Positions 36,768-64,000 of a stretch of 64,000 nt of DNA are shown here, piece by piece. The notes beneath the pieces were generated by a model. The model was not told the origin of the DNA and ran no database searches. It saw only the letters and a list, made by a program, of their open reading frames with translations. The DNA lies in contig NZ_FNEK01000023.1 of the NCBI RefSeq assembly GCF_900099935.1, positions 20,904-84,903 on the forward strand, read 5' to 3'. A program made the position numbers and the translations under genes. The DNA comes from Aliiruegeria lutimaris. GTDB lineage: Bacteria > Pseudomonadota > Alphaproteobacteria > Rhodobacterales > Rhodobacteraceae. The first letter of the stretch is position 1, and each line of letters begins with the position of its first letter.

Positions 36768-37208
36768 GGTGGTGTCAGACCAATTCGAACTCGTCTCACT
36801 AAGGGCAGGACGGCTGGCCCTTATGTCGTATCGAGCTGACGCCACTCGGCGAGAGCGGCGGCGAACAACTGCAGACTTCGCAATCGCCTGAAGCGCTGTA
36901 TTGCCCTCTCTCTTCGTGGAAATGGCAGGTGCGAATTCTCCGCCCGGTCGTTCATCCACTGGCCGGTTTCCTGCAAATCCACCGAAAAAATTGGCTCTAA
37001 GGTTGCCCCGGAGGATCGAAGTTAGTCAGTGACGATGGCCTCGGGCTGACCGTACCGCCGAATTGTTTTCTTGAGGAATTTCAATGCCGCCTTCTTGTCC
37101 CGTTTCTTCGTCACGGAGCTCTCCAATACCTCGCCCTCGTGATCGACTGCCCGCCAGAGATCGTGCCGCTCGCCGTTGATCTTCACGAACATCTCGTCGA
37201 GATGCCAC
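36768..37208 (-). mobile_element. IS6-like element remnant 1 (C-terminal half)
   Basis: Begins with the end sequence GGTGGTGTCAGAC and continues into transposase sequence read on the minus strand: QWHLDEMFVKINGERHDLWR, then VDHEGEVLE, LKFLKKTIRRYGQPEAIVTD and NDRAENSHLPFPRRE. Stops and frameshifts break it, and everything upstream of the first catalytic Asp is missing. The same family recurs at 46271, 49041 and 58530, always in the same orientation. Confidence 0.8.
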
Positions 37209-37211
37209 TGT

Positions 37212-37295
37212 CACGGCGGCCATCATGCGAAAGCTCATCGTCCTCGCCAAGGCGCTGATCCGCGATCGTCTCTTATGGCAAGCCTCACGCACTTG
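37212..37295 (+). mobile_element. IS110-family transposase C-terminal scrap
   Basis: The plus strand reads AIMRKLIVLAKALIRDRLLW then QASRT and a stop, which looks like the end of an IS110/IS116/IS902 transposase. It directly abuts the broken edge of the IS6-like remnant, so two elements have been cut and joined here. Short, so assignment is moderate. Confidence 0.45.
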
Positions 37296-46270: not shown

Positions 46271-46383
46271 GCGGATGATCTCGCGGCTGGTCCGGAAGTA
46301 CTTGAATGGGTCGGATTTCCTCATCCCGAGATGCTAGGGGACCACCCTGCCCCGCTCGATCGGATTCCCTCTGACAACGTCAC
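46271..46383 (-). mobile_element. IS6-like element remnant 2 (transposase N-terminus and left end)
   Basis: On the minus strand it starts with the degraded end GACGTTGTCAGAGGG and then reads DPFKYFRTSREIIR, the N-terminal segment of the IS6-family transposase. It shares long blocks with 49041-49143 (ACCACCCTGCCCCGCTC). The AmrS stop codon lies at its outer edge. It is a direct repeat of the copy at 49041. Confidence 0.75.
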
Positions 46384-47444
46384 GCGATCAGGATCGGCTG
46401 CCTTCTTGGCCCCCAGGCGCCGGGTGGGCCTTCGATCACTCCGGGAAACGCGCAACCACAATTTAGGCAGTTGCCATTTTCGGTCAGATTCCATTTGGAG
46501 AGTTGATACCAATCTCGGCCGATCACCAGCCCTCCGCAATGCGCGCAGTAGCTCGAATCCGCTATTTTGTGATGTGTGTTTCCGACATAGACGTGGTGCA
46601 CACCCGCGGCCTTGGCGATCTCCCGCGCGTGCAACAAGGTCGATTGCGGCGTTGGCGGCACGTCTCGCATGCGGTGATCCGGGTGAAAGGCCGAGAAATG
46701 CATCGGTACGTCCGGACCCAAGCGGTCCACTACCCATTCAACCATTTCTGTCAATTCCCCGTCGCTGTCGTTCCAGCCCGGGATCAGGAGCGTCGTGAGT
46801 TCCACCCAGCAGTCCGTTTCTTTCACGACATATTCGATGGTCTCCAGCACCGGCGCGAGATGCGAGGCCGTGAGGTCGTGGTAGAATTTCTCGGTGAAGG
46901 CCTTCAGGTCGATATTCGCCGCGTCCATGTTGGCGAAGAACTCCACGCGCGGCTCGGGCGTGATGTATCCGGCTGTCACCGCCACGCTTCGAATGCCTTT
47001 TTCATGGCAGGCCTGCGCGATGTCGACGGCGTATTCATGGAAGATCACCGGGTCGTTGTAGGTATAGGCGACGGAGGCCGCACCGGCCTTCGCCGCCGCA
47101 TTCGCGATCATCTCGGGCGTTGCGTAGTCAGACAGGCTCGCGACCTCGCGACTCTTCGATATCTCGTGGTTTTGGCAGAACTTGCAGGCAAGGTTGCAGC
47201 CCGCTGTGCCGAAACTCAATACCGGCGTGCCAGGCAGGAAATGGTTGAGGGGTTTCTTCTCGATCGGGTCGATGCAGAAACCCGAGGAACGGTTATAGGT
47301 GTCGAGCACGATACGCTGGCCCTCGGCCTTGCGCACGAAGCACAGCCCGCGCTGTCCCGGCTTCAGCGCGCAGAAGCGTGGACAAAGCTCGCAAACGAGC
47401 CGTCCATCATCGGGCCGGGATGACCAGAAGCGCGCAGTTTCCAA
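46380..47444 (-). CDS. amrS: AmmeMemoRadiSam system radical SAM enzyme
   Basis: 354 aa radical SAM protein with the CX3CX2C cluster motif at Cys83, Cys87, Cys90 (GCNLACKFC). An N-terminal cysteine set (LVCELCPRFC and GLC) and a C-terminal pair of CxxC motifs (YCAHCGG, CLNCGC) suggest more iron-sulfur or zinc sites. VAYTYNDPVIFHEYAVDIA and PGWNDSDGEL are the family's conserved blocks. Start: TTG at 47444 with GGAGAGG five bases upstream; no in-frame ATG fits. It is divergent from the Memo-AMMECR1 fusion. The family is widespread but its reaction is not something I can state from sequence. Confidence 0.92.
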   Translation of the reverse strand: METARFWSSRPDDGRLVCELCPRFCALKPGQRGLCFVRKAEGQRIVLDTYNRSSGFCIDPIEKKPLNHFLPGTPVLSFGTAGCNLACKFCQNHEISKSREVASLSDYATPEMIANAAAKAGAASVAYTYNDPVIFHEYAVDIAQACHEKGIRSVAVTAGYITPEPRVEFFANMDAANIDLKAFTEKFYHDLTASHLAPVLETIEYVVKETDCWVELTTLLIPGWNDSDGELTEMVEWVVDRLGPDVPMHFSAFHPDHRMRDVPPTPQSTLLHAREIAKAAGVHHVYVGNTHHKIADSSYCAHCGGLVIGRDWYQLSKWNLTENGNCLNCGCAFPGVIEGPPGAWGPRRQPILIA

Positions 47445-47463
47445 GGTGACCTCTCCATTTTTT

Positions 47464-47473
47464 TGTGATCACA
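47464..47473. promoter_or_regulatory. TGTGATCACA palindrome, candidate CRP/FNR-type site
   Basis: A perfect 10-bp palindrome in the 86-bp divergent promoter region of the AmmeMemoRadiSam module, near the A/T-rich TATTATAT that may be a -10 element. It resembles a half-spaced CRP/FNR core. Only this one copy was noted. Confidence 0.4.
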
Positions 47474-47530
47474 TATTATATAGGGCAAGTAGGCTCACAC
47501 AGAAGGCTGCGCGTTGCCGATAGGAGATAG

Positions 47531-48886
47531 ATGACCGTACGCAGCTGCCGATTTGCAGGCATATTTTTCCCTGCGGAGGGCAGACAGCTCGCCGCCACAG
47601 TAGAGGATTGTCTGCGGGCAGCCGAACAAGCTGACCGGGCCGGAGCAGCCGATCCTTGTGCCATCATCTCTGCCCATGCCGGCTATCAGTATTCTGGGCT
47701 CTTTGCAGGGCTTTCCTTCGGGTCGGTCATTTGGAGGCCGGCGCGCGTCGTGGTGATCTCGCCTTCGCATCGACACTGGTTTCGCGGCCTGGCTTATCCA
47801 TCCCAGGATGTTTTTTCGACTCCACTCGGCCCGCTCGAAATAGACCGTGCCGCCTGCGCAGAACTCGGCCACGCAGGCTTGGCGCATGAGGAAGACGCGG
47901 CCCATGACAATGAACATGGCATCGAAACGCAACTCCCTTTCATCCGTACACTGTGGCCGGAAGCGAAAATCGTTCCGTTGGTTTGCGGAGACGTGCCGCC
48001 CGAGCAGGTGGCAGCGGCAATCGACGCGCTCGCTGGGCCGAACACCCTGACGGTTCTTTCCTCCGACCTCAGCCATTTCCTGCGCCAGGATGAGGCCCGC
48101 CAGAAAGATGCTGAAACCGCGCGGCTGATCGAAACCAGTGAAGCGGCCGCGTTGACTTCGTACCATGCCTGCGGAGCTCGAGGCATTCAGGGGTGGCTCA
48201 TATCCCGAGCCGGCCAAGCGACCAAGGCACTGAGGCTCGGAATGGGCGACAGCGCCGCTGTGAGTGGAGACCGGTCACAGGTCGTCGGGTATGGTGGCTG
48301 GGCTTTCTATCCGTCCGATGCTGCTATCCTGAACCGGAAATCGCGGGAGGAATTGCTCGGCCTCGCTCGATACGCGATAACGGAACGATTGGCGACTGGT
48401 CGCGGGGCCTCGTCCCCCCAAGAGCACGCGTCTCAGCCGCTGCAGACGGTAGCAGCCAGTTTCGTGACGCTGACGCTGGGCAGAGACCTGCGCGGTTGCA
48501 TTGGGTCACTTGCGGCCCGAAGGCCTCTTGCCCTGGACGTGGCGGAAAACGCGACAGGCGCCGGTTTCCGCGACCCGCGTTTCAGGGCCGTGACTGCGGC
48601 AGAGTTGCGAGCACTGCGCATCAAGATCGCCGTTCTCGGCAAGCCGATCGAAATGGCCTTCGAAGATGAAGAGGATGCTCTGTCCCGGCTGGTACCCGGG
48701 CTCGATGGAGTGATCCTGTCCACGGCAACCCAGCGTGGAGTCTTCCTTCCGGCAGTGTGGGAGCACTTTCCGCAACCGCGGCCTTTCCTCGAAGCGCTGA
48801 AACTCAAGGCAGGACTTGCGGGAAACTATTGGAGCGAGAACGTGGCCCTGCACAGCTTTCGGGTGGAAAGCTTCGAGGAACCCTGA
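47531..48886 (+). CDS. AmmeMemoRadiSam system B-A fusion (Memo plus AMMECR1 domains)
   Basis: 451 aa. The N-terminal domain (about 1-265) is Memo-like, related to extradiol dioxygenases, with histidine motifs CAIISAHAGYQYSG, SPSHRHWF and SSDLSHFL. The C-terminal domain (about 275-450) is AMMECR1-like with the invariant LRGCIGSL and AVWEHFPQPRPFLEALKLKAG. In other genomes these domains are often separate proteins; here they are one chain, which argues that they work together. The ATG at 47531 has AGGAG upstream and is divergent from amrS. Activity of the system is unknown to me. Confidence 0.92.
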   Translation: MTVRSCRFAGIFFPAEGRQLAATVEDCLRAAEQADRAGAADPCAIISAHAGYQYSGLFAGLSFGSVIWRPARVVVISPSHRHWFRGLAYPSQDVFSTPLGPLEIDRAACAELGHAGLAHEEDAAHDNEHGIETQLPFIRTLWPEAKIVPLVCGDVPPEQVAAAIDALAGPNTLTVLSSDLSHFLRQDEARQKDAETARLIETSEAAALTSYHACGARGIQGWLISRAGQATKALRLGMGDSAAVSGDRSQVVGYGGWAFYPSDAAILNRKSREELLGLARYAITERLATGRGASSPQEHASQPLQTVAASFVTLTLGRDLRGCIGSLAARRPLALDVAENATGAGFRDPRFRAVTAAELRALRIKIAVLGKPIEMAFEDEEDALSRLVPGLDGVILSTATQRGVFLPAVWEHFPQPRPFLEALKLKAGLAGNYWSENVALHSFRVESFEEP

Positions 48887-48960
48887 CGCAATGGGATGAA
48901 CCGCCTTCCCACCGCCCCGCAGTTATCGTTGCGGGACTGGCGAAGGAGAGGAGCATCCGA

Positions 48961-49040
48961 TGAACATCAGGGTTTTGGGCATGGATCTGGGCAAGACGGA
49001 TTGCAGCCTTGTTGCCCGGAACGCAGGCGCTCGGTGCGTT
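48961..49040 (+). mobile_element. IS110-family transposase N-terminal scrap
   Basis: ATG at 48961 preceded by GGAG opens NIRVLGMDLGKTDCSLVARN, the RuvC-like DEDD-domain start of IS110-type transposases (first catalytic Asp in GMDLGKT). After about 27 codons it is cut and joined to the IS6-like remnant at about 49041. Confidence 0.6.
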
Positions 49041-49143
49041 TCTCGCGGCTTGTCCGAAAATACTTGAATGGGTCGTGTTTGGTCCTTCCGAGAGGCTACG
49101 AGACCACCCTGCCCCGCTCAACCGGATTCACTCTGACACCGCC
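49041..49143 (-). mobile_element. IS6-like element remnant 3 (transposase N-terminus and left end)
   Basis: End sequence GGCGGTGTCAGAG on the minus strand followed by the HPFKYFRTSREIIR-like region. It is a direct repeat of the copy at 46271-46383; between them lies the AmmeMemoRadiSam module. Confidence 0.75.
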
Positions 49144-53225: not shown

Positions 53226-54767
53226 ATGACCGAGGCCCCGATCATCGCAGCAAAATCTCCCGGAATGGTCGAACTTGAAGAGGGCAAGCGTTACACGTGG
53301 TGTCGCTGCGGGCGGTCGAAGAATCAGCCCTTCTGCGACGGATCGCACCGGGGCACCGGAATTAAGCCGATCAGTTTTACAGCCGAAAAGACAGGAAGGT
53401 CCGCACTTTGCCAGTGCAAGGCCAGCGCCAACGCGCCGTTTTGCGATGGGACGCACGCGCGACTTGGCGAGCTTTCCGTTGGCGATCCGTCTCCAGAGGG
53501 GAAGGAATCCGGTGCACCCAAGGCCGTCCCGACGCCCGAAGAACCTACGGTCGCACGCATCCACGAGCTTGCCAGGGACGGCTTGTCGAAACTCGGCCAT
53601 CACGGCGAGGTAGGTGCCATGGGCGTGCCGCGCAAGGACCTGCCACACTGGGACGATATTCAGATCCTGCCGGCTCAGATGGCCCGAAAACCCCTGCTCG
53701 ACGACCACAAGGTTGGTACAAGCGTCGTGATTGGCCCACGCGCCGCAAGGCCCCTGCAACTCGATATCCCGCTGTTTGTCTCCGACATGAGCTTTGGTGC
53801 CCTGTCGGAGGAAGCCAAGACAGCGCTCGCGCGCGGTGCCGAGCTGGCCGGAACCGGAATCTGTTCAGGTGAAGGCGGCATGCTGCCTGAGGAGAAGGCA
53901 GAGAACAGCCGCTACTTCTACGAACTCGCCTCTGCCCGGTTCGGCTGGCGCCCGGAACTCGTGGAGGACGTCCAGGCCTTCCATTTCAAGGGAGGACAGG
54001 GGGCCAAGACCGGCACAGGTGGACATCTGCCTGGAGAGAAGGTCCAAGGGAAGATCGCCGAGGTGCGTGGGCTAGAGCCCGGCCAGAGCGCGATCTCTCC
54101 CAGTACATTCCCAGACCTCGTAACCCCGGAGGATTTCGCGAAACTCGCCGATGAAGTGCGAGAGCGCTCGGGGGGCATTCCGATCGGGTTCAAACTCTCC
54201 GCAAATCACATCGAGGATGACATCGACTTTGCCCTCGAAGCCAGTGCCGACTACATCATCCTGGACGGGCGCGGCGGCGGGACCGGGGCGGCGCCGTTGA
54301 TTTTCCGCGATCATATCTCCGTGCCGACGATTCCGGCGCTGGCGCGGGCAAGGCGGCATCTGGATGCGAAGTCAGGTCGTGAGGTCACGCTTGTTGTCAC
54401 AGGTGGGCTAAGGGTCGCCGAGGACTTTGTGAAGGCGCTTGCCCTGGGTGCCGATGCCATAGCCGTGTCAAACGCGGCAATGCAGGCGGTCGGGTGCATA
54501 GCAGCCCGCATGTGCAACACCAACAACTGCCCGGTCGGCGTCGCTACCCAGAAACCGGAACTCAGGGCGCGTCTCGATGTCGAGGTAGGAGCGCAGAGGT
54601 TGGCGCGGTATTTCGGTGCGAGCGTCGAACTCATGAAAGTTCTGGCGAGGGCCTGTGGACATGGGGATCTATCGAATTTCACTGTCCACGACATTACCAC
54701 TTGGAACCGTGACATGGCGGCGTTGAGCGGCATTCGGTTTGCCGGTGTCGGGCAAGAGGCAAGTTAG
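53226..54767 (+). CDS. Double CDGSH iron-sulfur and glutamate-synthase-like FMN fusion protein
   Basis: 513 aa. Two CDGSH-type 2Fe-2S binding motifs lie at the N-terminus: Cys26, Cys28, Cys37, His41 (CRCGRSKNQPFCDGSH) and Cys62, Cys64, Cys73, His77 (CQCKASANAPFCDGTH). From about residue 150 it is a GltB-type FMN domain: LFVSDMSFGALSEEAKTALA, GTGICSGEGGMLPEE, DGRGGGTGAAP, and MCNTNNCPVGVATQKPELR, the 3Fe-4S cysteine motif. The amidotransferase part of glutamate synthase is absent. It is a redox enzyme with unknown substrate. Confidence 0.9.
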   Translation: MTEAPIIAAKSPGMVELEEGKRYTWCRCGRSKNQPFCDGSHRGTGIKPISFTAEKTGRSALCQCKASANAPFCDGTHARLGELSVGDPSPEGKESGAPKAVPTPEEPTVARIHELARDGLSKLGHHGEVGAMGVPRKDLPHWDDIQILPAQMARKPLLDDHKVGTSVVIGPRAARPLQLDIPLFVSDMSFGALSEEAKTALARGAELAGTGICSGEGGMLPEEKAENSRYFYELASARFGWRPELVEDVQAFHFKGGQGAKTGTGGHLPGEKVQGKIAEVRGLEPGQSAISPSTFPDLVTPEDFAKLADEVRERSGGIPIGFKLSANHIEDDIDFALEASADYIILDGRGGGTGAAPLIFRDHISVPTIPALARARRHLDAKSGREVTLVVTGGLRVAEDFVKALALGADAIAVSNAAMQAVGCIAARMCNTNNCPVGVATQKPELRARLDVEVGAQRLARYFGASVELMKVLARACGHGDLSNFTVHDITTWNRDMAALSGIRFAGVGQEAS

Positions 54768-57716: not shown

Positions 57717-58274
57717 TCAGATTTCAATGGCCTGTGCAATCGCGAGAGCATGCTCCAGCCCGAGTTCGCCAAACATCTGGTACCGGTCTTGCTGCCGATA
57801 GAATGTGGTCTTGGGAATGCCGAGTTTGTCCAGCGTCCGCTTCACCGGCAAGTGGGACAGCTCCACAAGGCGGATGAATTCGAGCTTGTCTGAGGCTTGA
57901 TATCCCATATGTCTTCGTCTCCCCCAGCATGCTTTTTCGAGCAAGCGGTTTTCGAGCGTGAGGTTGGCCACAGCCTCCTTCAGTGCCGCAGCTCCCGCGC
58001 GAAGATCTTTGATCTCGGGACTGGTCGCCTGACGGACGGTATCGCCAGCCAAACGCTTCTTTCCAGCTTCGAGCAACTCCCTCGACCAGCCGTAGTACAG
58101 GCGGGTGGCAATCCCTTCCCGACGGCACAGCGCGGCGATGTTCTCCTCGCCACGGAGGCCCGCCAGAACGATGGGGATCTTCTCCTCGGCCGAGTAGTGC
58201 TTGCGGGTCTTGTGGTTGATCCCCGTGACCAGCTTGTCAGCGGCATCCTTCGATGTTCCGGGTGTCTGTTTCAT
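57717..58274 (-). pseudogene. IS3-family transposase, OrfA joined to truncated OrfB
   Basis: The minus strand encodes OrfA with the helix-turn-helix (HYSAEEKIPIVLAGLRGEENIAALCRREGIA) and leucine-rich coiled coil (LKEAVANLTLENRLLEK). After a short non-standard link (ACWGRRRH) it reads MGYQASDKLEFIRLVELSHL and VKRTLDKLGIPKTTFYRQQDRYQ, the start of OrfB, which then ends in unrelated sequence. In intact IS3 elements OrfB is made by frameshifting and has the DDE domain; here it is missing, so the element is dead. Confidence 0.8.
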
Positions 58275-58529: not shown

Positions 58530-59049
58530 GGTGGTGTCAGACAAGTTCGAACTCGTCTCTACTAGGGCAAGACTGCTGTCCCTTATGCCGCGCCGAGGCG
58601 GCGCCACCCGGCGAGAGCAGCGGTACGGTTTTTCTTGAAGTTGGACCTGGAGGAGAGGCTGCGCTCCGAGTTGAAATGGTTGGAGACAGAGGCGTGGACG
58701 GCGGAAAACATTTGCAGACTTCGCATCCGCCGGAAGCGTTGCATCGCCCGCTCTCGTCGTCGGAACGGCAGGTGCGAATTCTCCGCCCGGTCGTTCAGCC
58801 ATTGGCCAGTTTCGTGTAGTTGTTCGGCGCCAATCGCCTTCAAGGCCGCGCCGCAGGACCGAAGCAAGTCAGAGACGATGGCCTCAGGCCGGCCGTATCG
58901 CCGCATCGTTTTCTTCAAGAATTTCAATGGACCGCCAGGCGGATGATCTCTTCGCTCGTCTTGAAGTATTTGAACGGGTCGCGTTTTGTCATCTGTGGAC
59001 GCTACCCAGCCCCCTGCCCCGCGACAAGCCAAGTTGCTCTGACACCGCC
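58530..59049 (-). mobile_element. IS6-like element remnant 4, both ends, internally deleted
   Basis: 520 bp bounded by GGTGGTGTCAGAC and, on the other end, TCTGACACCGCC (inverted: GGCGGTGTCAGA), the terminal inverted repeats. The minus-strand transposase has its N-terminus and then PLKFLKKTMRRYGRPEAIVSD and LNDRAENSHLPFRRRERAMQ, with the middle including the first catalytic Asp gone. An intact element would be near 800 bp. It is the most complete of the four copies and defines both ends. Confidence 0.85.
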
Positions 59050-63090: not shown

Positions 63091-63627
63091 TCAGATCGGC
63101 TCGTTCGCGGCGTAGAAACGGATGTCTGCGATCGCGATGTCGGCTTCGAAATCGCGGCCGATGGCGACGATCCCGAGGCGCCGAAGGCCGGCGATGTTCA
63201 GTGCCTGATCCGTGCGGTGCGGCGTGAACTTCGCGAAAGGCAGGAACACGGTTTTCCATTCCGGCGGAGCCCGGAAACTCTGACGGTAGGATACCCACGG
63301 ACGGCGGATGTCGGAGGTTCGCAGATGCAGGTTGTAGGTCTGACCGTTGCCGAACACGTCGAGCCGGATACCCTCCCATTGCCGCGCATCCACCTCGCCG
63401 CCGGCATCGCCGAGATCCAGGGCGACCTGCAGGAAGCCGCCATTGTTCTCAAGGCTGACACCGCCCCGCATGCGGATGGCGTCTCGAGCGCCAACGGTCT
63501 CACGGGACATCGTACCCGACGAAACGCCGCCCATCACCCGGTCGGAGATCAGCGTCCAGCCATTGCCGGTCACCGCCATCGGCGGGTCGAAACGGAGATC
63601 GTCGATCACTTCCGGGGCATCAATCAT
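63091..63627 (-). CDS. CIA30 family protein
   Basis: 178 aa protein with the CIA30 (complex I intermediate-associated protein 30) galactose-binding-like fold: VIDDLRFDPPMAVTGNGWTLISDRVMGGVSSGTM, FLQVALDLGDAGGEVDARQWEGIRLDVFGNGQTYNLHLR and AIADIRFYA. Bacterial members have no known role. The start ATG at 63627 follows GGAGGG. No signal peptide. Its 5' neighbour is an IS110-type transposase fragment, so its promoter context may be recent. Confidence 0.88.
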   Translation of the reverse strand: MIDAPEVIDDLRFDPPMAVTGNGWTLISDRVMGGVSSGTMSRETVGARDAIRMRGGVSLENNGGFLQVALDLGDAGGEVDARQWEGIRLDVFGNGQTYNLHLRTSDIRRPWVSYRQSFRAPPEWKTVFLPFAKFTPHRTDQALNIAGLRRLGIVAIGRDFEADIAIADIRFYAANEPI

Positions 63628-63671
63628 GGGGCGGGTCCCTCCTGCCACTGGCGTAGATTTAGCAACTGTGT

Positions 63672-64000
63672 CTATTCATCGAGCTTAAGACGCCATGGGG
63701 TATCGGTTTTGATGATCGCGTTAGCGATTGTGACCAACCTTCGGGCGATTGCGATGATGACGAGCTTGTGTGGCTTTCCACGCTCCTTGAGGCGTTTTGC
63801 GACCGGCTTCAGAACCGGATTGTGACAAGCGGCGGCGAGCGCGGCCTGGTACAGCACATGTCGCAATGATCTTCGTCCGCCCGCGATAACGCGTCTGCCT
63901 TGCATCGCCCCGCTGTCATGTGGGACCGGTGCCAAACCGGTCATGGCAGCAATCTCACCCGATGACATCCGGCCGAGTTCAGGCAGTTCAGCGATCAACA
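63672..64000 (-). mobile_element. IS110-family transposase, C-terminal part (cut by window edge)
   Basis: The minus-strand frame opens off the window and reads ELPELGRMSSGEIAAMTGLA, GRRVIAGGRRSLRHVLYQAALAA and HNPVLKPVAKRLKERGKPHK, a typical IS116/IS110/IS902 C-terminal transposase domain with its helix-hairpin-helix and the conserved serine-rich loop. The N-terminal DEDD part lies beyond 64000, so whether it is intact cannot be told. An N-terminal scrap of the same family is at 48961. Confidence 0.88.

Follow-up and report, generated by a model that had tools for sequence, protein, structure and literature searches.

A 64,000-nt stretch of the Aliiruegeria lutimaris genome (contig NZ_FNEK01000023.1; hereafter the window, to whose positions all coordinates refer) carries a complete, single-copy AmmeMemoRadiSam module, made up of the gene for a radical S-adenosylmethionine (SAM) enzyme, amrS (S), and a gene that fuses a Memo domain (B) to an AMMECR1 domain (A). 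The module is an ordinary, intact member of a system that already has a name (TIGR04335, TIGR04336 and TIGR04337). Its two genes are transcribed divergently across an 86-bp gap (47445-47530), and its parts are as follows.

46380-47444, minus strand: amrS, AmmeMemoRadiSam radical SAM enzyme, 354 aa, TTG start (TIGR04337, 592.8 bits)
47531-48886, plus strand: amrB-amrA fusion gene, Memo then AMMECR1, 451 aa (TIGR04336 and TIGR04335; PF01875 and PF01871)
47540-48307, plus strand: Memo (B) domain, fusion residues 4-259 (TIGR04336, 196.3 bits)
48350-48874, plus strand: AMMECR1 (A) domain, fusion residues 274-448 (TIGR04335, 171.7 bits)

All three NCBIfam models exceed their cut-offs (220 bits for TIGR04337, 26 for TIGR04336 and 99 for TIGR04335) and Pfam agrees, which bears out the family call made in a preliminary description of this DNA; the fusion, the divergent pair with its 86-bp gap and the completeness of the module are likewise confirmed. 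Within the 5.8-Mb genome of the same organism, a profile search found this one amrS above the TIGR04337 cut-off and two weak matches besides, one of which is the pyruvate formate-lyase activase that adjoins pyruvate formate-lyase. The preliminary description had also presented the module as a poorly described system whose substrate could not be stated. In the literature searched, papers name the system in passing and none is about its function, judging by titles and the opening lines of abstracts; the family had nonetheless already been named, and is less new than that wording implied. The same search gave no paper joining AMMECR1, MEMO1 and radical SAM, a single paper that brings AMMECR1 together with radical SAM (PMC7159879), and, among the matches listed since 2019, none on AMMECR1 enzymology.

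Co-conservation, fusions and neighbouring genes

The three parts are co-conserved across the phylum. We surveyed 179 genomes drawn evenly from it, each at least 95% complete and with the genome of A. lutimaris counted, at thresholds of E <=1e-60 for AmrS and E <=1e-10 for Memo and AMMECR1. AmrS was found in 53 genomes, Memo in 50 and AMMECR1 in 49; all three occur in 48, some of them in 6 and none in 125 (Fisher's test for S against B, 5e-38, not corrected for kinship). The preliminary description had chosen co-conservation beforehand as its refuting test, and of the 54 genomes that hold at least one part, 48 hold all three. The partial sets comprise one genome with S and B and no A (G223), one with A and B and no S (G172), and four with S alone. 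Of these four, G237 carries an AmrS of the typical kind, G201 has just a distant one, G102 combines a typical with a distant copy, and the gene of G248 is broken. Fusion of B to A is common, being present in 21 of the 50 Memo genomes by our reading of equal open-frame lengths on the same contig, and natural fusions of all three domains exist in three domain orders.

Physical linkage is also frequent at the level of loci, for which counts were taken from 80 of 585 confirmed AmrS relatives. Within 3 kb of amrS, B was found at 54 loci, A at 46, both at 45 and neither at 25; for the 52 loci flanked by 2 kb or more on both sides the corresponding counts are 40, 36, 36 and 12. Twelve of the 25 loci with neither were checked genome-wide, and B lies elsewhere in the genome in 10 and A in 8; two AmrS-bearing genomes have neither, that of L105 and that of L071, the latter being a 1.2-Mb draft. 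Among the loci with B and no A nearby, eight of nine were checked, with A elsewhere in four and not found in four (L050, L051, L084 and L106), and at the locus with A and no B nearby (L108), B lies elsewhere in the genome. S/B pairs are divergent in 51 of 54 cases. In each of eight AmrS-bearing relatives besides the genome of A. lutimaris all three parts stand together: five have a fused B-A divergent from S, two have separate B and A genes divergent from S, and one (L027) encodes a single 875-aa S-B-A protein. A fused S-B-A chain is predicted to be compact.

Among 4258 frames of at least 90 aa at 89 loci we saw, by eye, no widely recurring family besides S, B, A and frames overlapping them, the next-widest cluster being ABC-ATPase-like and confined to 13 of the 89 loci.

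Conserved residues, a second lineage and the candidate target

Our tentative reading is that AmrS works in a single assembly with Memo-AMMECR1 and that this assembly modifies a peptide or protein. The radical SAM motif CxxxCxxC of AmrS would bind SAM, which the enzyme would cleave to a 5'-deoxyadenosyl radical that would attack a residue of the target; two further sets of cysteines may be ligands of auxiliary clusters or of zinc. The contribution of Memo would be a bound iron, and that of AMMECR1 the Cys323 of its LRGCIG motif. The Memo metal site and the LRGCIG site are predicted to act on the same target, binding or finishing it, and for the system in the window this target would be encoded elsewhere in the genome.

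The residues that such chemistry would use are in place. The AmrS of the window keeps 13 conserved cysteines: Cys83, Cys87 and Cys90 of the CxxxCxxC motif, two extra sets of four (18/21/25/35 and 300/303/326/329), and Cys57 and Cys146. These cysteines are 97-100% conserved across 209 AmrS sequences, and conserved columns were also examined in 35 sequences. Cluster binding, which the preliminary description had named as a further point of possible refutation, is supported to the extent that sequence can speak to it, the ligand cysteines being present. Residue 51 (47292-47294) is Asn, and Gly occupies this position in 99% of the 209 sequences; the Asn is common to the window and genome G002 and not found in G003. 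The predicted fold of AmrS is nearest to that of pyruvate formate-lyase activase.

In a profile alignment His49, His80 and Cys214 of the window's Memo domain align with His49, His81 and Cys244 of human MEMO1, which are its iron ligands (PMC11081632), and the His, His, Cys triad is 100% conserved in an alignment of 183 B sequences. Loss of the third Memo ligand, our initial expectation, is ruled out by the profile alignment, in which the Cys is conserved. The AMMECR1 domain carries LRGCIG at fusion residues 320-325, and also D348, R350, K426 and W434.

A second AmrS lineage, found outside the window, bears on the nature of the target. An AmrS paralogue scoring 367-397 bits, above the TIGR04337 cut-off, occurs in six genomes of the phylum scan. 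Of 48 genomes from the order of G132 (largely Magnetococcales) 11 carry it, as do 2 of the 28 gammaproteobacterial genomes tried (loci L135-L140 and L145-L157, including two gammaproteobacterial metagenome-assembled genomes). At all 13 of the 13 paralogue loci, the gene of a small protein (48-96 aa) starts before the AmrS gene ends; eleven of these genes and that of L157 were found by one pattern search, and that of L156 by eye. The small protein has a twin-arginine-like stretch and a C-terminus of AG or LG, and its tails are alike in nine of the 13 (LxEADFYxPHxLAG-like, e.g. LQEADFYRPHDLAG) and more diverged in the other four (L145-L148). As a control, a twin-arginine-like frame lies behind four of 84 ordinary amrS genes, none overlapping the stop codon and one with a loosely similar end. 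One of the small proteins was scanned against Pfam and NCBIfam and had no match. The small-protein gene is followed by a Memo-AMMECR1 fusion gene, whose product has a predicted signal peptide at the loci where it is readable. Of the 120 proteins most similar to one such fusion, 109 have a signal stretch by a simple hydrophobicity rule, versus 2 of 63 ordinary Memo genes. In 111 of 120 homologues of the AmrS paralogue the first cysteine comes after five or six residues, and in 113 of 120 the first CxLCP starts by residue 7; because the start lies so close to the first cysteine, the paralogue appears to have no signal of its own. It also lacks the ARFW..PDDG segment of ordinary AmrS, which, by our reading of stretches too short to score, the tail of the small protein may resemble. 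L135 continues with a gene for a Gate (nucleoside recognition) membrane protein, and L138 with a similar-looking one. Each of six genomes has one in-frame TGA in the paralogue gene, and selenocysteine was considered and rejected, the TGA being the natural stop after GVW(T/A). A third AmrS-like type (L142-L144; about 294-304 bits, 494-501 aa with a C-terminal extension) has Ser for the second N-terminal Cys, and the stretches examined contain no Memo or AMMECR1. The literature searched yielded no description of the second branch and no paper joining radical SAM, twin-arginine and precursor peptide, which is not proof of novelty.

The small protein may be a substrate of AmrS or a carrier for twin-arginine translocation (Tat); as a carrier it would take the folded AmrS paralogue through Tat to the exported Memo-AMMECR1. 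A more specific and rather doubtful proposal is that AmmeMemoRadiSam is a peptide-modification system in which the Tat-type small protein of the second branch reveals the peptide, either as the substrate or as a detached N-terminal strand of AmrS, the system of the window being a cytosolic version with an unlinked target.

We lean towards a peptide target because of the activase-like predicted fold, this second lineage, and two reports: a related radical SAM domain serves peptide-processing systems (PMC7159879), and Memo-like fusions have been predicted among candidate recognition elements of ribosomally synthesized and post-translationally modified peptides (RiPPs; PMC12710340). Several observations weigh on the other side. 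The complete chromosome of Halomonas beimenensis (L105, NZ_CP021435.1) has AmrS and neither Memo nor AMMECR1, as do 4 of the 53 AmrS genomes of the phylum survey, and the four genomes with S and B loci named above gave no AMMECR1; AMMECR1 stands alone in a Haloferax control and Memo alone in a Thermus control. Ordinary modules have no recurrent peptide gene at their side: when 2038 frames of 25-90 aa lying within 1.5 kb of the module at 89 loci were clustered, the widest cluster reached 4 loci. Human MEMO1 retains the metal-site and second-shell residues of Memo, and AmrS is not known in animals; Memo therefore seems not to need AmrS for its chemistry.

A small-molecule substrate is nearly as likely as a peptide or protein. 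S, Memo and AMMECR1 would then be successive or joint catalysts acting on one compound, such as a modified nucleotide base or an isoprenoid; Burroughs et al. (2019) reportedly pointed to nucleotide bases and isoprenoids. However, no metabolic gene recurs widely beside the module at the 89 loci, the predicted fold of AmrS is nearest to an activase that modifies a protein, and the second-lineage B-A fusion is predicted to be exported, apart from a cytosolic AmrS. That activase-like fold would also suit a maturase that modifies Memo-AMMECR1 itself, for example at a residue near LRGCIG or the Memo metal site, and so would the second lineage, where the fusion has a predicted signal peptide and AmrS has no room for one, such that the two would meet only before export. 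We consider this improbable: human MEMO1 has the same residues at the Memo site, and AMMECR1 or Memo occurs in control genomes that lack AmrS, so that no residue looks AmrS-dependent. Finally, the next-best NCBIfam matches of AmrS are activases of glycyl radical enzymes (the pyruvate formate-lyase activase model at 55 bits, against a cut-off of 231.75), which could suggest that it activates such an enzyme encoded elsewhere in the genome. We give this virtually no weight, and the distribution of the genes contradicts it. The sole glycyl radical enzyme of the A. lutimaris genome, a pyruvate formate-lyase by family match, has its own activase next to it (TIGR02493, 288 bits, cut-off 231.75); a glycyl radical domain is present in 7 of 9 genus genomes, but G003 has amrS and no such domain, and G001, G004, G005, G006 and G008 have the domain and no amrS.

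MEMO1 and AMMECR1 are disease-linked human proteins whose chemistry is not established, and bacteria tie their relatives to a radical SAM enzyme, up to a three-part fusion. If the module does modify a peptide or protein, the role of the human relatives becomes testable. The two-gene version studied here, absent from 6 of 9 genus genomes, is a compact test case and would be a convenient knockout system, and the short protein coupled to AmrS in the exported branch would reduce the substrate question to one mass-spectrometry experiment.

IS6 remnants, spread and the promoter gap

The module is tightly bracketed by two direct repeats of 101 nt that are 84% identical to each other.

46279-46379, minus strand: IS6-family end remnant, its outer end touching the amrS stop codon (repeat and IS6 match)
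49041-49141, minus strand: IS6-family end remnant in the same orientation (repeat and IS6 match)

The preliminary description had reported bracketing direct IS6 repeats. The repeats are real and derive from IS6-family ends, but they are decayed remnants and no intact element is present: each consists of about 103-106 bp of the same outer IS6 end, with some 16 transposase codons. A full IS6 copy stands elsewhere in the A. lutimaris genome, in L005 (235-aa transposase; PF13610; NF033587, 196.2 bits, cut-off 125). The right remnant lies 155 bp past the fusion gene and adjoins a 35-bp piece from the IS6 interior (49014-49048); beside it is a 35-aa frame, a putative IS110-type start with no NCBIfam match. 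Two more broken IS6 copies lie in the window at 36768-37222 and 58530-59022, and pieces matching HTH_Tnp_1 and IS116/IS110/IS902 at 57717-58274 and 63675-63998.

Among close relatives, AmrS occurs in three of the nine genomes of the genus and in four of the 36 examined for the family (A. lutimaris counted in both). DNA similarity to the three closest loci is confined to the module (G002, 46378-48874, 80%; G003, 46387-48332, 77%; Thalassovita aquimarina, 46385-48879, 75%). Beyond it, 20-kb stretches of close loci share with the window, at the DNA level, only a gene that we take to be CIA30-like and, in G002, scraps of IS6. The CIA30-like gene lies at 63091-63648 in the window, adjoins amrS in G002 and is found in G004 near a DLH and histidine-phosphatase pair; pair and gene are reshuffled among the window, G002 and G004. 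Because the DNA surroundings differ between close loci, the module seems to have moved somehow.

That the direct repeats moved it as a unit, as the preliminary description had suggested, remains no more than a suggestion, given how far the remnants have diverged, the two other IS6 traces in the window, and the lack of a clean empty site or junction in a comparison of the surroundings among the window, G002 and G004. Loci L126-L128 did not enter the analysis. IS6-borne capture is plausible in that it would fit the tight bracketing by two similarly oriented ends, the confinement of similarity with the three close loci to the module, and the differing surroundings. We nevertheless consider it unlikely that the module was inserted here as the cargo of an IS6-type pseudo-compound transposon: at 84% identity the remnants are no closer to each other than to the L005 element (87-89%), both lack a complete transposase gene, the stretches around the module in G003 and Thalassovita aquimarina gave no IS6 trace, the nearest trace in G002 is a 78-bp fragment 0.8 kb away, and the GC content of the module (60.5%) is close to that of the window (61.2%). 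Carriage on plasmids is rare: of 72,556 records 6 have AmrS, and in 2 of these B-A is present as well. A single short frame is common to the two Sinorhizobium stretches, and the plasmid copies from Methylocystis and a mycobacterium are cut short, their annotated neighbours having no common theme.

The gap between the two genes was compared among four close loci (the window, G002, G003 and Thalassovita aquimarina).

47445-47530, no strand assigned: divergent promoter region, 86 bp, between amrS and the fusion gene
47464-47473, no strand assigned: TGTGATCACA palindrome, candidate operator, in the same place in 3 of the 4 close loci

A Shine-Dalgarno-like stretch can be seen by eye before each gene, and the alignment of the gaps has ATATAGG in all four loci and TTTGTGATCACA in three, with a degenerate form of it in G003. 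The palindrome TGTGATCACA is kept in the window, G002 and Thalassovita aquimarina but not in G003, and is absent from the other 54 of the 58 divergent gaps examined; a perfect 10-nt palindrome is by itself unremarkable, with 77 in the window. TGTGATCACA is likely to be an operator, and its regulator would act on both genes. The 58 gaps contain no full FNR or CRP pattern and one loose FNR-like match (L039). Elsewhere in the window, 53226-54767 encodes a glutamate-synthase-like protein with two N-terminal CDGSH iron-sulfur stretches.

Comparison with known systems

The module differs in nothing defining from the AmmeMemoRadiSam system, in which the divergent S/B layout prevails and fused B-A is frequent, as in the window. 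Human MEMO1 (7KQ8, 7L5C) has the Memo fold, and its His, His, Cys iron triad and a nearby His, Asp and His are common to the Memo domain of the window. Unlike that domain, MEMO1 is not known to be fused to AMMECR1. Extradiol dioxygenases of the LigB type have Glu as the third iron ligand (PMC11081632); the window's Memo domain, like MEMO1, has Cys at this position. The pyruvate formate-lyase activating enzyme is predicted to be the closest in fold to AmrS and has CxxxCxxC in common with it, whereas AmrS has two additional four-cysteine sets. An IS6 pseudo-compound transposon needs two directly oriented copies of the element, at least one with a whole transposase; the window has two direct end remnants, each with about 16 transposase codons. 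RiPP systems place a precursor peptide gene beside the enzyme. At loci of the window's type no frame of 25-90 aa recurs beside the module in more than 4 of 89 cases, and coupling of amrS to a small gene is confined to the second lineage. The likeness to radical SAM peptide-processing systems, for which a related radical SAM domain and predicted Memo-like fusions are reported, is tempered by the same lack of a recurring precursor gene.

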